A stretch of 64,000 nucleotides of DNA from Streptomyces smyrnaeus. GTDB taxonomy: Bacteria; Actinomycetota; Actinomycetes; Streptomycetales; Streptomycetaceae. Positions 35,245 through 43,151 of the stretch are shown in pieces. The notes under the pieces are model-generated. The model saw nothing but the letters and a program-made list of their open reading frames with translations, made no database searches and was not told the origin of the DNA. The DNA lies in NCBI RefSeq assembly GCF_017676345.1, contig NZ_JAFFZM010000001.1:496001-560000 (forward strand), given 5' to 3'. The translations under genes were made by a program, and so were the position numbers. Numbering within the stretch: the first letter of the stretch is position 1; each line of letters begins with the position of its first letter.

Positions 35245-36939
35245 ATGTACCGTCCGGACCTTTCCCCCGTGGGCGACAGCCTCGCGCTGTCCGCGCTGGT
35301 CGGAGCGTTGCCCCTGCTCACCCTCTTCGTCCTGCTGGGCGGTCTGCGGCTGAAGGCCCACTGGGCGGGGCTCGCCGCGCTGGGCACCTCCGTCGTGGTG
35401 GCGGTGTGGGCCTATGACATGCCGGTGGATCTGGCCCTCCTCGCAGGGACGGAAGGCGCGGCCTTCGGGCTGTTCCCGATCATGTGGATCGTGCTCGCCG
35501 CGCTGTGGGTGCACCAGCTCACCGTCACCAGCGGCCGGTTCGCGGATCTTCGGCGGGCGTTCAACCTCGTCAGCGACGATCCCCGTATCCAGGCCCTGAT
35601 CATCGCCTTCTGCTTCGGCGCGCTGCTGGAGGCGCTGGCCGGGTTCGGCGCCCCGGTGGCGATCACCGGCGTGATGTTGCTGGCGCTCGGGTTCTCCCCC
35701 GTACGGGCCGCCGTCACAGTGCTGGTGGCCAACACCGCGCCGGTGGCGTTCGGGGCGATCGCTACGCCGATCATCACCGCCGGGACCCTCACCGACATCG
35801 ACTACGCGGACATCGGCGCGTACGTCGGCCGCCAGACTCCGCTGCTGGCGCTGTTCGTCCCGCTGCTGCTGGTGGTGCTGGTGGACGGGGTGCGGGGGCT
35901 GCGGCAGACGTGGCCGGCCGCCGTGGTGTGCGGGGGCGCGTTCGCCGTGGCGCAGTTCGTGAGTTCCAACTACATCTCCGTCGAGCTCACGGACATCGTC
36001 GCCTCGCTGGTCGCACTCGGGGCCGTCGTCGCATTCCTCCGCGTGTGGCGGCCGGCCGAGGGCGAGCGGGTACGGGAGGACCTGCGGGTGGCGGCCGAAC
36101 GCGAGCACCGGGAGGCGGGTGGCAGCGGGCCGCCTCCCGCGGAGGCGCAGCGGGCCGGTGCGGCGGAACAGGCCGGTACGGCCGGGGCACTGTCCCGGGG
36201 GCGGATCCTGCAGGCGTTCGTGCCGTATCTCGTCGTCATCGCCGTCTTCTCCGTCGCCAAGCTGTGGGACCCCGCCGAGGAGTTCCTCGCCGACAGTGAT
36301 GTGTCGGTGTCCTGGCCCGGGCTCGACGGGGAGGTGCTGACGGCCACCGGTGAGCAGTCGTCCACCACCGTCTACGTCTTCCCCTGGCTCTCCTCCCCCG
36401 GCTCGCTGCTCGTGCTGTGCGGCATCCTGGTGGCCGTCGTCCACCGGGTGCGCGCGCTGGACGCGGTGCGGGAGTTCGCACGCACGGTGCTGACTTTGCG
36501 TTGGGCCCTGCTCACGGTGGGTTCGGTGCTGGCGCTTGCGTATGTGATGAACCTGTCCGGGCAGACCATCACCATCGGCACCTGGATCGCCGGCGCGGGG
36601 GCGGCCTTCGCCTTCCTCTCGCCGCTCCTGGGCTGGCTCGGCACGGCCGTGACCGGCTCGGACACCTCGGCGAACGCGCTGTTCGCCACTCTCCAGCAGA
36701 CCGCGGCCGGCGAGGCCGGACTGGATCCGACACTGCTGGTCGCCGCCAACACCTCGGGCGGGGTCGTCGGCAAGATGATCAGCCCGCAGAATCTGACCAT
36801 CGCGGCGACCGCCGTGGGGCTGCTCGGCAATGAGGCCGTTCTCTTCCGCAAGACCATCGGCTGGAGTGTGCTGCTCCTGCTGACCCTCTGCCTTCTGGTG
36901 CTGCTCCAGTCGCACGTCCTCGCGTGGATGCTGCCGTAG
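35245..36939 (+). CDS. L-lactate permease (LctP family)
   Basis: The protein has 564 aa with about 13-14 hydrophobic helices. LctP hallmarks include LFPIMWIVLAALWVH, FCFGALLEALAGFGAPVAITGVML (in two blocks), VLVANTAPVAFGAIATPII and the C-terminal NTSGGVVGKMISPQNLTIAA. It should import lactate or glycolate with protons across the cytoplasmic membrane. A hydrophilic loop with Gly/Ala/Glu repeats lies near residues 270-310. No lactate dehydrogenase genes are adjacent. A strong hairpin separates it from the cold-shock gene. Confidence 0.94.
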   Translation: MYRPDLSPVGDSLALSALVGALPLLTLFVLLGGLRLKAHWAGLAALGTSVVVAVWAYDMPVDLALLAGTEGAAFGLFPIMWIVLAALWVHQLTVTSGRFADLRRAFNLVSDDPRIQALIIAFCFGALLEALAGFGAPVAITGVMLLALGFSPVRAAVTVLVANTAPVAFGAIATPIITAGTLTDIDYADIGAYVGRQTPLLALFVPLLLVVLVDGVRGLRQTWPAAVVCGGAFAVAQFVSSNYISVELTDIVASLVALGAVVAFLRVWRPAEGERVREDLRVAAEREHREAGGSGPPPAEAQRAGAAEQAGTAGALSRGRILQAFVPYLVVIAVFSVAKLWDPAEEFLADSDVSVSWPGLDGEVLTATGEQSSTTVYVFPWLSSPGSLLVLCGILVAVVHRVRALDAVREFARTVLTLRWALLTVGSVLALAYVMNLSGQTITIGTWIAGAGAAFAFLSPLLGWLGTAVTGSDTSANALFATLQQTAAGEAGLDPTLLVAANTSGGVVGKMISPQNLTIAATAVGLLGNEAVLFRKTIGWSVLLLLTLCLLVLLQSHVLAWMLP

Positions 36940-37002: not shown

Positions 37003-37036
37003 GTGGTACTACGCGTCAAGCTGTGTGCGCTGTGCG

Positions 37037-37240
37037 TCAGGCAGGAGTGATGTTCTCCGCCTGCGGGCCCTTCTGGCCCTGCGTGACGTCGAAGTTGACC
37101 TTCTGGCCTTCGTGGAGCTCACGGAAGCCCTGGGCCGCGATGTTCGAGTAGTGGGCGAAGACGTCGGCGCCGCCGCCGTCCTGCTCGATGAACCCGAAGC
37201 CCTTTTCCGAGTTGAACCACTTCACAGTGCCGGATGCCAT
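37037..37240 (-). CDS. Cold-shock protein (CspA family)
   Basis: The protein has 67 aa, the standard length; AAGGAGAAGAAG precedes the ATG. RNP1 is KGFGFI and RNP2 is DVFAHY, with the N-terminus [16 protein letters not shown]. It is a nucleic-acid chaperone of the cold-shock domain fold that binds single-stranded RNA/DNA. The upstream 234-base gap has a hairpin at 37335-37362, which ends the laccase transcript; the remainder could contain a long leader. It is monocistronic. Confidence 0.97.
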
Positions 37241-37474: not shown

Positions 37475-38467
37475 TCAGTGATGATCTTCGTGCCCGGGCA
37501 CGGTGCCGTCCGGTTTGGCGATGAGGAGCAGACCGGCCATGCCCATGTCGGAGTGGCTCTGGACGTGGCAGTGGTACATCCACGCACCCGCCCCCACGCC
37601 CTCCCCGGCGATGAACTGGAAGCCGAAGGAGTCCGCGGGGCCGGTGATCTTGTTGTCGATGATCCGGCTGGTGTCCTCGGGGCCTTCCAGCAGCCCGGTG
37701 CGGTTGTCGGCCCAGCGGTGACCGTGCACATGGAAGGTGTGGTAGTACTCGCCGTGCGTGATCATGATGATCTCGACGCGGTCGCCCACCGTCGCCTTGA
37801 AGTCCGGCCCCTTGGTGAGGTTGTTGGTGGTCATGTCGTTGAAGACGATGGTGAACTGCCGGTCGGGATCGGGCAGGATGTCGCCCTCGCGCCGCACGAT
37901 GACCGGCCCGTAGAGACCGTTGCGGATGCCTCCGGTGCCGTGTTCGGTCCCGACGACGTGATCGTGGTAGTGCCAGTAGCCGGCGCTGCCGGGACGCCAG
38001 GTGCCGTCCTTGCGGCGGCCGGGCGCATGGGTGCGCCAGGTGTAGGTGCGCCTGCCGCCGGGCTCCACATGGCTCTTGTTCATCTTGGTGCCGTCGTTGG
38101 CGATGTCGTAGTCCACACCGTGCGGGTGGAGGCTGGCGGCGACGTCCATGGTGTTCTCGAACTCGATGTGCAGGGTGTCGCCTTCGACGAGTTCGATCAG
38201 CGGGCCGGGGATGGTGGCCTTGCCCTTCTCCAGGCCGTAGCCCATCTGACCGTCCGGCAGCTTCTCCGCGTACATCTTGATCCGCCGGGTCTCACCGCCC
38301 TTGCCCGCGCGGCGGATGGCCGCGGAGCGGGCCGGCGCCGCCTGTGCGGGCCGGGTTGCGGCCGTCAGCGAACCCGTGCCGACCGCGGCGACGGCGCCGG
38401 AGGCCAGCAGGCCCCTGCTGAAGGCGCGACGGGTGTGGGTGCTCGACTCTCGGTTCTCTCCGGTCAT
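37475..38467 (-). CDS. Small two-domain laccase (SLAC-type multicopper oxidase), Tat-exported
   Basis: The protein has 330 aa from the ATG at 38467. [17 protein letters not shown] near residues 11-25 is a twin-arginine signal. All copper motifs are present: HPHG (114-117), HYHDH (166-170), HTFHVHGH (243-250) and [12 protein letters not shown] (299-310). The pattern, including [16 protein letters not shown] and [18 protein letters not shown], matches the trimeric two-domain laccase of S. coelicolor. It oxidises phenols and other reductants with oxygen outside the cell. It is divergent from the secreted ThuA-dehydrogenase gene, 206 bases away, suggesting joint regulation. Confidence 0.96.
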
Positions 38468-38600
38468 CGTTCTCGTTCTCCCCGGGGGCGATGGCGGGTG
38501 GAGGCTGAACGGTGCGCCGCGCATGGCGAGTTGTGGGGGACGGTAGCGCCGACCGCAGTGTTTATCCACACTCAGGACAAAGTTCGTCGAGTTGTGGTCA

Positions 38601-38631
38601 TAGACCTTGGCGAACCGCCGAAAGAGGTCTA
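38601..38631. promoter_or_regulatory. Inverted repeat between the laccase and ThuA-dehydrogenase genes
   Basis: TAGACCT (38601-38607) is matched by AGGTCTA (38625-38631) across 17 bases, in the shared divergent promoter region. GGTCTAG-like halves resemble carbohydrate operators, but the spacing is unlike any I can name. Confidence 0.45.
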
Positions 38632-38644
38632 GCTTCTGCCACGT

Positions 38645-38657
38645 TTCTGTGACAGAA
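38645..38657. promoter_or_regulatory. 13-bp palindrome just upstream of the ThuA-dehydrogenase start
   Basis: TTCTGTGACAGAA is a perfect palindrome around TGA, ending 16 bases before the ATG at 38674. It overlaps the leader and so could act as an operator. Confidence 0.45.
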
Positions 38658-38673
38658 GAGGGGTGGATCACGC

Positions 38674-41181
38674 ATGCGGCTCCAACCGCACCCGAAACGG
38701 GCGAGACCCCGACGTTCCCAGCGGTCCCGACGCACCAGGATCGCCACACTGCTGGCCGGCGCGCTCACCGCCGGGCTGCTCGGCGCACCGGCGCTCGCGG
38801 CGCCGCCGCCCGGGGCGCCCGCGCCCAAACTGGCACTGCCGAGCCCGCCGGGCGGTGAGGACGTGCGCGTCCTGGTCTTCCACGGCGCGACGGGCGAGGA
38901 GTCCCCCACCGTCAACGCGGCGATCGAGGCCATCGAGAAGATCGGACAACAGGGCCCGGCCCAGGAGCACTTCACCATCCGGGCCACCGACGACCCCGCG
39001 ATCTTCACCAAACCGCGGCTGGGCCGCTTCAACGCCGTCGTCTTCCTCACCGGCGACGGCGATGTGCTCGACCCCGAGCAGGAGGCGGGGCTGGAGAGCT
39101 TCATGGAGGCGGGGGGCGGGTTCCTCGGCATCCACGACGCGGCGCGCGCCGAGCCCTATTCGGACTGGTTCACCGGGCTGATCGGCGCCCGGCCCGCGGA
39201 CAACGGCCCTCAGAAGGTGCAGCGCGCCACCGTGGAGGTCGGCGACCGGCAGCACCCGGCGACCCAGGACCTGCCCGTGGAGTGGAAGCGCCCCGACAAG
39301 TGGCTCAACTGGAAGGAGAACCCTTCCGGGAAGGTGCACACCGTCGCGCGGGTCCGCACCAACAGCTACGACCCGGGCAAGGACGCGGGCAGCTGGGACC
39401 ACCCCGTCTCCTGGTGCCGCGACTACGACGGCGGCCGGTCGTTCTACACCGCCATGGGCGGCACCCGGTCCAGCTTCGCGGAGACCGATTTCCGCAGCCA
39501 TCTGCGGGGCGCACTGATGTGGACGACACGGCTGGCGCGTGCCGACTGCCAGGCGGCGATCTCCTCCAACTACGAGGCCGAGCGGCTCACCCGGCCCAAC
39601 CAGCCGGGGCAGTCCGACCAGATCGGCGAGCCGCACGGGCTGGTCACGGCCGAGGACGGCCGGGTCTTCTACATCGGCCGGGGCGGCGGTGACGCGTCCC
39701 AGCCGGTGGTCACCGACTGGGACGACCCGGACATCGGCAAGGGCAAGGGCCAGGTGCACATCTGGGACCCCAAGACCGAGAAGGTCACCCTGGCGGGCGA
39801 GCTGACGGTCTTCGGCAACAAGGGCGGCGGCGACGAGCTGGTCAAGAACGAGGAGGGGCTGCTCGGCATCGAGCTGGACCCGGACTTCGACAAGAACGGC
39901 TGGGTCTATCTGCACTACACGCCGCACAGTGAGATCAACCGCGACACACACATGGCCGAGCGGCGGGTCTCCCGCTTCACCCTGGACGAGGAGACCGACA
40001 AGCTGGACCTGGACTCGGAGAAGGTGCTGCTCAAGTGGCCGGTCCAGATCCACAGCTGCTGCCACGCCGGCGGCGGCATGGCCTGGGACTCGAAGGACAA
40101 TCTCTACATCGCCACGGGTGACAACAACTCCTCGCGGTTCAGCGACGGTTACTCGGGCAACAACCCGGAGCCGAACTTCAAGGGTGTCTCCTTCGCCGAC
40201 GCGCGCCGCACGGCGGGCAACACCAACAACCTCAACGGCAAGATCCTGCGCATCCACCCCGAGGACGACGGCACCTACACCCTCCCCGAGGGCAATCTGT
40301 TCACCGGGGAGGAGACCGCCGAGGGCGGCGGCAAGACCCGCGGCGAGATCTATGTGATGGGTGTCCGCAACCCGGCAAGGATCGCCGTCGACAAGAAGAC
40401 CGACACCCTGTACGCGGGCTGGGTCGGCCCCGACGCACAGGACCCGAGCCCGACCTGGGGCCCGGCCAAGTACGACACCTTCGCCAAGATCACCAGCGCG
40501 GGCAACCAGGGCTGGCCGTACTGCATGGGCAACAAGCAGCCCTACCGGGACCGCAATCTGCCCGATCCCAGCAAGCCGCTGGGCTGGTACGACTGCGACC
40601 ATCTGAAGAACGAGTCGCCCAACAACGACGGGCTCGTCAACATCCCGCCCGCGCGGAACAACAACATCTGGTACTCGCCGCAGGGCGGCGCGCCGGACTT
40701 CCCGCGCGACGAGAACGGTGTGCCCAGCTACAAGCTCGACGAGCAGAAGCTCACCCTCTCCTGGCTCAAGGGCGGCGGGCAGGCGGCGATGACCGGGCCG
40801 CTCTACCGGTTCGACGACGAGCTGTCGGCGAAGGGCAAATGGCCCTCCTACTGGGACGGCAAGTGGTTCGTGGGCGACTTCTACGACGGTGACCAGCCGC
40901 GGCACGCGCTGGTGATGCCCGAGGGCGACACCGTGGGCGCGCGGCCCGCGCACGCGGAGAGCCTGGATCAGATCGTCCCCGTCGGAGAGGGCGGCATCCG
41001 CAACCTCATGGACTGGAAGTTCGGCGCCGACGGCGCGCTGTACGTCCTCGACTACGGGCGCGGATTCTTCACCTCCGACGACAAGTCGGCGCTGTGGCGG
41101 GTGACGTACAAGGGCGGCGAGCCGACCCCGAGCGCCGAGGACATGGCCGAACCGGCACTGCGGAAGGAGACGGGCCGATGA
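38674..41181 (+). CDS. Secreted ThuA domain fused to PQQ-dependent sugar dehydrogenase-like propeller
   Basis: The protein has 835 aa. A basic n-region and hydrophobic segment ending APALA form a signal peptide. Residues ~63-275 are a ThuA-like domain: [44 protein letters not shown] and [20 protein letters not shown]. Residues ~325-820 are a glucose/sorbosone dehydrogenase-type six-bladed propeller: [60 protein letters not shown] and [16 protein letters not shown]. It should oxidise a sugar or glycoside extracellularly with PQQ and pass electrons on. It is the first gene of an operon whose stop overlaps the next start. Confidence 0.9.
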
Positions 41182-43151
41182 GGGCGAGCGCACGGCCGGG
41201 GCGGCGGCGCAGACAGGAGCGGCGCAGGCTGCTGACGGCCCTGCTGGCGGCGCTGCTGATGGTGCTGGGACTCACCTCCGCCACGGCGTGGGGCAAGGGC
41301 ACCGCGCCGGCCGCCGACGCCACCGCGCAAGGCGGCGGCACGGCAGCCGATCAGGTGCTGACCTGGACGGCCGACGACGACATGACGAAGTACGCCTCCG
41401 CTCCGGCGACCGCCGTGGCGGGCAAGGCGACGATCGTCTTCGAGAACAGCGCGGCGACCGGCAACACCACCGGGATGTCGCACACCCTCACCTTCACCAC
41501 CTCCGACCCCGACTACAACCAGGACGTCGATCTCAACATCCTGGCCTCCCCCAACGACTCGAAGGGCGGCAAGCACACGGCGGAGGTCACCCTGACCCCG
41601 GGGACCTACAAGTACTACTGCACCATCCCGGGACATCAGCAGATGCAGGGCACCCTGGTGGTGACCGGGGACGAGCCGGGTGAGGACACCACGCCGCCGC
41701 AGACCTCCGCCACGGTGGACGGCGACAAGGACGAGGACGGCAACTACCTGGGCAGCGCGACGGTCACGGTGACGGCCTCGGACGCCGACTCGGGCGTGGA
41801 CGGCATCGAGTACGCCCTCGACGGCGGCGCGTACCAGGCCTACACGGCGCCGGTGACGGTCACGGACGCGGGTGAGCACACCGTCCGCTACCGGGCGAAG
41901 GACAAGGCGGGCAACACGGCGGAGGAGAAGTCCGTGAGCTTCACCGTCGTCGAGCCGCCCGACGTGGACACCACCCCGCCCACGACCGAGGGCAAGGCCG
42001 AGGGCAGCAAGAACTCCGACGGCCACTTCATCGGCAGGGCGACGGTGACGGTGACCGCGACGGACGACAAGTCCGGCGTCGAGACGATCGAGTACTCGCT
42101 GGACGGCGCGCCGTATCTGCCCTACTCCGACCCGCTGGTCGTCGACCGGGCCGGATACCACGCGGTGACCTACCGGGCCACCGACAAGGCGGGCAACACC
42201 TCCGAGCCGCAGAAGGTCTCCTTCCGCGTGGTGGCGGGCGGCGGGGTGCCCGCCCCGGCCTGCCCGGAGTACGACGAGCGGGAGACCGTGATCGTCGGCA
42301 CCGTCGACACCGGGGTGCCCAACCGGATGACGATGCGCCGCTGCACCGTCAACGAGCTGATCGAGGACGAGAAGGAGTGGACCTCGCAGGCGCTGTTCCT
42401 CAAGCATGTGCGCGCTGTCACCGCGCGGCTCGTCAAGGAGGGCGTGATCGTCGTCCGCGAGCAGCGGCTCATCAACCGCGCCGCCAAACGCTCCGGCATC
42501 GGCACACCCGGCCAGAACACCGGCTACCGCGATCTGTTCGACGGCAGCAAGGAGTCCTTCGCCGACTGGGAGCAGGTCGGCGGCGGCCGATTCGGACTGA
42601 ACGAAGACGGCACCATGACCAGCGACGACGAGGTCGAGGGCATGGGGATGCTGTGGTACCCGAAGCGGAAGTACGGGGACTTCTCCCTGAAACTGCAGTT
42701 CCGCGACGACGCGCCGGGTGACGGCCGGACCAACAGCGGCGTCTTCGTCCGGTTCCCCGATGTGCACGACCACCCGGAGGAGTCACGTCCGGAGTGGGTG
42801 GCCATCAAGTACGGGCACGAGCTGCAGATCCTGGACCGCCCGGACGGGGACATGTACAAGACCGGCTCCGTCTACGGGTTCGACCGCGTCGGCCTGGCGG
42901 GCGCGGGCGTCACCCCGAAGGGCACCTGGAACGACTACGAGATCCGGGTGATCGGCCAGCACTACGAGATCTATCGCAACGGCACGCTGATCAACGAGTT
43001 CGACAACGACCGCGGTCAGGTCTTCGAACCGCCGCGCGGCGACGACCCGGGCACCGACGGGCGCCGCTACGCCTCGGGCTATGTGGGCCTGCAGGTCCAC
43101 GGGACCACTGACGTGGTGTCGTACCGCAACGTACGGATCAAGGAACTGTAG
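41178..43151 (+). CDS. Secreted cupredoxin - two Ig-like domains - DUF1080 (3-keto-glycoside hydrolase-like) fusion
   Basis: The protein has 657 aa and its ATG overlaps the previous stop (ATGA). After a signal peptide, a plastocyanin-like domain (~55-165) has Cu ligands His102 in MSHTLTF, Cys148, His153 and Met156 in YYCTIPGHQQMQG. Two OmpL47/Ig-like repeats follow (~171-256 and ~261-355), with TVTVTASDADSGVDGIEYALDG and the same pattern again. The C-terminal DUF1080 domain (~452-657) shows GYRDLFDGSKESFADWE and TNSGVFVRFPD. DUF1080 proteins act on 3-keto-glycosides. Linking a copper carrier to such an enzyme, beside a sugar dehydrogenase, implies oxidised-sugar processing. Confidence 0.88.
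   Translation: MRASARPGRRRRQERRRLLTALLAALLMVLGLTSATAWGKGTAPAADATAQGGGTAADQVLTWTADDDMTKYASAPATAVAGKATIVFENSAATGNTTGMSHTLTFTTSDPDYNQDVDLNILASPNDSKGGKHTAEVTLTPGTYKYYCTIPGHQQMQGTLVVTGDEPGEDTTPPQTSATVDGDKDEDGNYLGSATVTVTASDADSGVDGIEYALDGGAYQAYTAPVTVTDAGEHTVRYRAKDKAGNTAEEKSVSFTVVEPPDVDTTPPTTEGKAEGSKNSDGHFIGRATVTVTATDDKSGVETIEYSLDGAPYLPYSDPLVVDRAGYHAVTYRATDKAGNTSEPQKVSFRVVAGGGVPAPACPEYDERETVIVGTVDTGVPNRMTMRRCTVNELIEDEKEWTSQALFLKHVRAVTARLVKEGVIVVREQRLINRAAKRSGIGTPGQNTGYRDLFDGSKESFADWEQVGGGRFGLNEDGTMTSDDEVEGMGMLWYPKRKYGDFSLKLQFRDDAPGDGRTNSGVFVRFPDVHDHPEESRPEWVAIKYGHELQILDRPDGDMYKTGSVYGFDRVGLAGAGVTPKGTWNDYEIRVIGQHYEIYRNGTLINEFDNDRGQVFEPPRGDDPGTDGRRYASGYVGLQVHGTTDVVSYRNVRIKEL

Follow-up and report, generated by a model that had tools for sequence, protein, structure and literature searches.

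Three adjacent genes in Streptomyces smyrnaeus, encoding a SLAC-type laccase, a secreted ThuA-GSDH protein and a secreted cupredoxin-DUF1080 protein, are a conserved unit, well beyond chance. They lie in a stretch of 64,000 nucleotides (hereafter the window; contig NZ_JAFFZM010000001.1, positions 496,001 to 560,000, 72% GC) from a genome of 8.08 Mb in 69 contigs. The best-supported reading of this module, to which we give about an even chance as stated in full, is a secreted three-protein sugar-oxidation chain with O2 as the final acceptor. In such a chain, for which the dehydrogenase role of the propeller, the sugar and cofactor it uses, the course of the electrons and the cleavage by DUF1080 are all inferred, the ThuA-GSDH propeller would oxidise a sugar or glycoside outside the cell and the neighbouring cupredoxin would accept its electrons singly. 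The type 1 copper of SLAC would then take the electrons from the cupredoxin, O2 being reduced to water, and DUF1080 would cleave or hydrate the keto-glycoside, perhaps with help from ThuA. What the computation shows is that the genes belong together, that a conserved control region is common to them in Streptomyces, and that elsewhere propellers related to this one occur in fusions with small electron carriers. The features of the locus, with the evidence for each, are as follows.

37475-38467, minus strand: SLAC-type two-domain laccase, 330 aa, ATG at 38467 (Pfam profiles, PDB match, copper motifs)
38468-38673, no strand: common divergent control region, 206-bp gap (alignment of Streptomyces rows)
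38674-41181, plus strand: secreted ThuA-GSDH protein, 835 aa (profiles, AlphaFold model)
38866-39525, plus strand: ThuA domain, aa 65-284 (Pfam profile; fold match 4jqs)
39550-41127, plus strand: GSDH beta-propeller, aa about 293-818 (profile, GSDH 358-619, and fold match)
40057-40065, plus strand: Cys462-Cys463-His464 (alignment to soluble glucose dehydrogenase)
41178-43151, plus strand: secreted cupredoxin-OmpL47x2-LNK-DUF1080 protein, 657 aa, ATG at 41178 (profiles)
41352-41666, plus strand: cupredoxin domain, ligands H102, C148, H153 and M156 (profile, alignment)
41745-42233, plus strand: two OmpL47-type repeats (NCBIfam NF047446)
42255-42512, plus strand: LNK domain, about 85 residues, without a Pfam match (sequence)
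42522-43142, plus strand: DUF1080 / 3-keto-disaccharide hydrolase domain, aa 449-655 (PF06439)

The original prediction, made from the sequence of the window, described a Tat-exported SLAC laccase in one divergent module with two stop-start coupled genes, and each of these points held. The TGA of the ThuA-GSDH gene (41179-41181) overlaps the ATG of the cupredoxin gene at 41178, which confirms that the two are coupled. The laccase carries Cu-oxidase_3 and Cu-oxidase_2 domains, begins by eye with the twin-arginine start THTRRAFSR of a predicted Tat-type signal, and finds its best PDB match in 3cg8 (E 1.5e-165), which we take to be the SLAC of S. coelicolor. It has the copper-ligand motifs HPHG (114), HYHDH (166), HTFHVHGH (243) and a further one of 12 residues (299, letters not shown).

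Conservation of the three genes across actinobacteria

Among the matches listed for a sample of 121 Streptomyces genomes, ThuA-GSDH occurs in 72 (near-full-length rows at 66-100% identity, with lower-identity paralogues left out), SLAC in 74 and a match to the cupredoxin protein in 73, the last number including a gene without DUF1080 (G037) and a remnant (G048). SLAC and ThuA-GSDH are divergent and adjacent in all 71 genomes that have both, across a gap of 150-419 bp (median 223), and the cupredoxin gene is next on the same strand as ThuA-GSDH in 71 of 72. One genome (G120) has its cupredoxin gene on a different contig, and another (G073) has no SLAC, its 8,823-bp contig ending 296 bp past ThuA-GSDH.

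The module stands out from its surroundings. When 25 loci were compared, the laccase was found in all of them and each of the other two genes in 24, with the G048 remnant (L123) as the exception, and the window's neighbours outside the module were found in 1 or 2. In that remnant, only 3' fragments of the genes for laccase and DUF1080 are left, apparently through a single deletion of the module, with an assembly fault as the alternative. The idea that the module is no more than an inherited neighbourhood is rejected in part by the rarity of the window's other neighbours. Up to 13 of the 25 loci do have other neighbouring families of open reading frames (ORFs) in common, some of them antisense ORFs, so that part of the genus sample represents one ancestral place and its cases are not all independent.

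The partnership extends well beyond the genus. In a class sample of 246 genomes (SLAC counted at E 1e-50 or better), module-type ThuA-GSDH (56-100% identity) was found in 38 genomes and SLAC in 39; all 38 have SLAC within 6 kb, the pair being divergent in 21 genomes and on the same strand in 17. Conversely, 41 of 49 SLAC genes in this sample lie near ThuA-GSDH. The remaining eight are five extra copies in module genomes and three genes in G422, near which no ThuA-GSDH was found by a scan that scored three candidates per genome and may have missed it there. At 20 loci outside Streptomyces, SLAC is present in 20, a cupredoxin gene in 19 and DUF1080 fused behind the propeller in 19, with one locus cut by a contig end (L151) as the missing case for both.

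A third set, the best 80 of at least 563 confirmed relatives at loci from named species, overlaps the class-sample genomes, so the two samples are not independent. It includes Micromonospora, Actinoplanes, Amycolatopsis, Saccharothrix, Nonomuraea, Microbispora, Georgenia, Promicromonospora, Isoptericola and a few Streptomyces. All three parts are found in 76 of the 80 loci; three of the incomplete loci lie at contig ends (L190, L201, L202), and the fourth, L195, has neither laccase nor cupredoxin. Gene orders vary among laccase-propeller-cupredoxin, cupredoxin-laccase-propeller, propeller-cupredoxin-laccase and divergent forms, and DUF1080 shifts between proteins from locus to locus while the set persists. 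Such constancy of membership under changing order, strand and domain fusion argues strongly for a joint function. The predicted association is thus conserved in other actinobacteria (71/71 genus genomes with both SLAC and ThuA-GSDH, 38/38 class genomes with module-type ThuA-GSDH, 76/80 named loci) rather than being an adjacency in the source genome only.

The divergent genes also have a conserved control region in common. In 60 aligned Streptomyces rows, among which the source genome is present twice, 49% of the columns of the core at 38551-38661 are at least 90% identical, compared with 10-27% in flanking stretches that include fast-changing signal peptides. A candidate promoter, TTGGCG-17-TAGCTT, was identified by eye in the direction of ThuA-GSDH. 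The core is conserved, yet no regulator could be named for it. Of 27 genus loci scanned, 11 have a LacI-type gene of at least 72% identity close to the module; in the window this search gave no such gene. The control region and the LacI-type genes would fit an explanation by shared regulation only, in which laccase, oxidative enzyme and glycosidase work on the same plant material without exchanging electrons. We consider this improbable, as gene order changes while membership stays constant and the propeller is found fused to electron carriers.

Several side observations concern the locus and its copies. In S. fungicidicus the module is on a record filed as a plasmid, with a LacI regulator adjoining, and is annotated as multicopper oxidase, ThuA protein and family 16 glycoside hydrolase. 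Two SLAC genes stand side by side, adjoining the module, at L152, L153 and L155. The module in the window is flanked by what we take to be a lactate-permease-like gene (35245-36939, plus strand) and a cold-shock-protein-like gene (about 37036-37240, minus strand), which among the 25 loci compared are common only to L095.

The propeller pocket and its cofactor

The second protein scores far above cut-off with both the ThuA profile (202.7 bits against 33.4) and the GSDH profile (89.8 bits against 25). Its AlphaFold model (mean pLDDT 83.1, pTM 0.85) matches the soluble aldose and glucose dehydrogenases that use pyrroloquinoline quinone (PQQ): 2ism (Z 35.9), 3a9g (35.8), 3das (32.9), which is a PQQ-bound enzyme of S. 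coelicolor, and 1cq1 (28.7). After removal of duplicates and of rows of at most 330 residues, which reduced the propeller alignment from 237 to 185 rows, Glu393, His464, Arg565, Asn566, Gly596 and Pro597 are invariant in all 157 module-type propellers. These align, in the same order, with Gln76, His144, Arg228, Asn229, Gly247 and Pro248 of soluble glucose dehydrogenase (sGDH), which we take to include its catalytic His, its Arg-Asn pair and the Gly-Pro of its calcium site. Because 78 of the 157 rows came from loci selected by the patterns HSCCHAGG and EIYVMGVR, the counts for Cys-Cys-His and Arg565 are unbiased only for the other 79, where they are 79/79.

The module propellers share with the soluble PQQ dehydrogenases the fold (Z 28.7-35.9), the catalytic His, Arg-Asn and Gly-Pro, and differ from them in having neither Lys nor Arg where the PQQ anchors align, in having Cys-Cys-His and Met, and in the fused ThuA domain. 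In profile alignments to 2g8s and 2ism, used for pocket mapping in place of superposition, the residues opposite Lys377, Arg406 and Arg408 are never Lys or Arg in a module-type row; in sGDH numbering these three presumably hold the PQQ carboxylates. The Arg408-aligned position (Met779 in the window protein) is Met in 157/157. Arg or Lys stands one residue before the Arg406 position (776) in 58 of 157 rows, making an alignment shift of one residue possible there. Among the 28 rows of distant relatives, Arg occupies the Arg406 position in 11 and Met the Arg408 position in 23. The question of whether PQQ-binding residues are lost therefore divides, with the active-site frame kept throughout and the three anchor positions without Lys or Arg.

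The distribution of PQQ synthesis genes likewise speaks against the PQQ cofactor proposed at the outset. PqqC and PqqE score above cut-offs in the same 25 of the 121 genus genomes, matches that show the PqqC model to work, and these are split into 13 of 72 genomes that carry the module and 12 of 49 that do not (Fisher p 0.49). Profile search of the source genome found nothing for PqqC, and nothing above cut-off for PqqE. In 23 further module genomes PqqC was found in 0/23, and the control genomes of that search also gave none. Since other bacteria use imported PQQ, we regard PQQ as a doubtful cofactor of the propeller rather than an impossible one, and this element of the original prediction is best left aside for now. 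The anchor positions without Lys or Arg, together with the general absence of PQQ synthesis genes, mean that the propeller may differ from the known dehydrogenase type.

The pocket has distinctive residues of its own. Cys462, Cys463, His464, Cys617 and Cys641 are kept in all 157 module-type rows. Of the 28 distant rows, two have lost Cys462/463 and kept Cys617/641, one has lost Cys617 and Cys641 together and one has lost Cys641 alone; three haloarchaeal proteins have Cys462/463 without Cys617/641, and a Runella protein has none of the four. Judged from these loss patterns, Cys617 and Cys641 are probably joined in a disulfide, although one row contradicts this, and Cys462-Cys463 is probably a separate pair adjoining the catalytic His. 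Met is kept in one of the two rows without Cys462/463 and is thus not strictly tied to the Cys pair. In methanol dehydrogenase a vicinal disulfide sits on PQQ, and by this likeness the Cys pair would favour a quinone in the propeller. A different reading, conceivable though unlikely in our judgement, is that the propeller works without PQQ. Cys-Cys-His, with Met for Arg408, would then form either a copper site or a vicinal disulfide with redox activity in a rebuilt pocket next to the catalytic His, and the whole path from sugar to oxygen would need no cell-made organic cofactor. A copper site with His464 and Met779 would be the bolder form of this reading.

Domain additions in the ThuA-GSDH family point to bound glycans: a non-Streptomyces module protein (L149) has an F5/8-type domain inside its ThuA part, and more distant relatives carry CBM6. 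Single-chain ThuA-GSDH proteins of 1976-2902 aa with PKD, CBM6, DUF1349 or cell-wall-binding domains occur at L081, L084 and L088, and the long chain at L081 also includes DUF1080. At L091 a second set in the same genome (14184-18280) consists of a GSDH-PKD-CBM6 protein followed by a ThuA-DUF1080 fusion; no laccase or cupredoxin was matched in the 18-kb stretch around it.

The cupredoxin-DUF1080 protein and the proposed path of electrons

The third protein has a Copper-bind domain (aa 85-162; 27.5 bits against a cut-off of 21.2), in which the type 1 copper ligands His102, Cys148, His153 and Met156 are present in 12/12 aligned proteins. Two repeats, called Ig in the original prediction, score best as OmpL47-type. 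Between these and DUF1080 lies a domain that we name LNK, with a consensus around CTINDLIDDE. Elsewhere LNK adjoins DUF1080 or ends cupredoxin proteins (L149, L157, L160 and others), and it may be a docking domain. Its identification as a FIMAH domain was rejected (hhalign probability 0.2 per cent against one FIMAH sequence). The C-terminal domain scores 123.8 bits against a cut-off of 26.8 with PF06439, named 3keto-disac_hyd in Pfam. The model of the third protein is moderate (pLDDT 74.1, pTM 0.35), and the best matches of its DUF1080 part include BT2157 (3osd) and the 3-keto-glycoside eliminase/hydratases 8rr2, 9fbe, 8tda and 8v31, at 21-22% identity to these four. The expected link of DUF1080 to 3-keto sugars is borne out by both the Pfam family and these solved structures; the fold is the same, and the activity in the module is a prediction.

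Fusions among relatives support the proposed link between propeller and cupredoxin. Related propellers are fused to plastocyanin-type domains in two Haladaptatus proteins and one Halocatena protein, and one Runella relative is fused to cytochrome c, all above Pfam cut-offs. In two genomes (G481, G524) a tandem SLAC pair and a cupredoxin-OmpL47 gene diverge from each other, and the 20-kb stretches contain no propeller; G422 has the same arrangement, its cupredoxin gene cut by the contig end. In these three genomes laccase and cupredoxin go together even alone. The fusions, the type 1 ligands and the SLAC-cupredoxin pairs are all consistent with a path from propeller to cupredoxin to laccase. 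Loci of this tandem-SLAC and cupredoxin-OmpL47 kind (L294, L295, L293) could be a reduced module.

The same pairs without a nearby propeller also bear on copper supply or defence, in which the cupredoxin would load or protect the laccase and the propeller would be a scaffold or sensor with no oxidoreductase activity. The Cys-Cys-His and Met residues could bind copper, and the available part of one source counts copper binding and metal homeostasis among the plausible roles of a two-domain oxidase of Cellvibrio (PMC13151041). We hold this explanation to be quite improbable; it accounts neither for the Runella cytochrome c fusion nor for the retention of ThuA and DUF1080, both linked to sugars, in most loci.

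Mediator cycling is an alternative that we consider unlikely. Here the laccase would turn phenols into quinones or phenoxy radicals, which the dehydrogenase would reduce with electrons from sugar in the manner of fungal cellobiose dehydrogenase, the cupredoxin being a side carrier. As far as the consulted portions of the sources go, SLAC oxidises phenolic compounds (PMC3918160), and cellobiose dehydrogenase reduces phenoxy radicals and quinones and raises the availability of laccase mediators (PMC7036934). Such cycling leaves both the near-constant cupredoxin gene and the propeller-cupredoxin fusions unexplained.

Several results weigh against the sugar-oxidation chain itself. Besides the PQQ anchor positions without Lys or Arg, the negative searches for PQQ synthesis genes in the source genome and 23 others, and the departure from the known dehydrogenase type that these may signify, laccases act on many phenols, and a sugar chain need not be their sole role. 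SLAC is present without module-type ThuA-GSDH in G058 and G116, a second SLAC in G432 has no matched partner in a 20-kb stretch, and L195 has ThuA-GSDH without laccase and cupredoxin. The G037 cupredoxin gene is without DUF1080. In the 2902-residue actinobacterial ThuA-GSDH protein at L084, a cupredoxin-like stretch scores below cut-offs, and its axial Met is, by eye, apparently absent.

Known systems and significance

The original prediction knew of no described system with this set of genes, and no description of the three-gene combination was found among the papers listed by searches of the open-licence PubMed Central literature. Fungal cellobiose dehydrogenase and AA12 pyranose dehydrogenase oxidise sugars outside the cell, with a heme domain as relay, and the AA12 enzymes (6i1q, 6jt5) have the same propeller fold as the module protein. 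A parallel on the sugar side is Caulobacter LacABC, a lactose 3-dehydrogenase, alongside which a DUF1080 protein has been proposed as the 3'-ketolactose hydrolase; the same source describes BT2157 as a 3-ketotrehalose hydrolase (PMC9007349). Like the module, this system would combine extracytoplasmic sugar oxidation with the action of DUF1080 on a 3-keto-glycoside, whereas its dehydrogenase is different, and cupredoxin and laccase are not mentioned in the excerpted text of that source (PMC9007349).

SLAC was described in 2004 (reference in PMC7036934), and many structures of it are in the PDB. In the parts of the literature consulted it figures as a phenol oxidase that acts on its own (PMC3918160), in contrast to the module partner found here: the window laccase is a close homologue, and the full module is present in a genome with a SLAC that matches 3cg8 at 100% identity across the 315 residues compared. 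Morphogenesis, pigmentation, lignocellulose breakdown and antibiotic production were listed in a 2020 review as speculated laccase roles (PMC7036934), and the roles of two-domain oxidases, chiefly of another superfamily and with SLAC-like enzymes included, were still called poorly understood in the available text of a 2026 source (PMC13151041).

That a propeller, a cupredoxin and a keto-sugar domain accompany SLAC almost constantly points to its probable electron donor and opens the question of its role to direct test in a common laboratory strain. The module also raises the question of which cofactor a PQQ-type propeller uses once the PQQ anchors are gone. Our results suggest that SLAC, whose natural role is unclear, passes electrons to oxygen at the end of a sugar-oxidation chain outside the cell. 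If this is true, soil actinobacteria would gain an extracellular, oxygen-linked chain for the oxidation of sugars.

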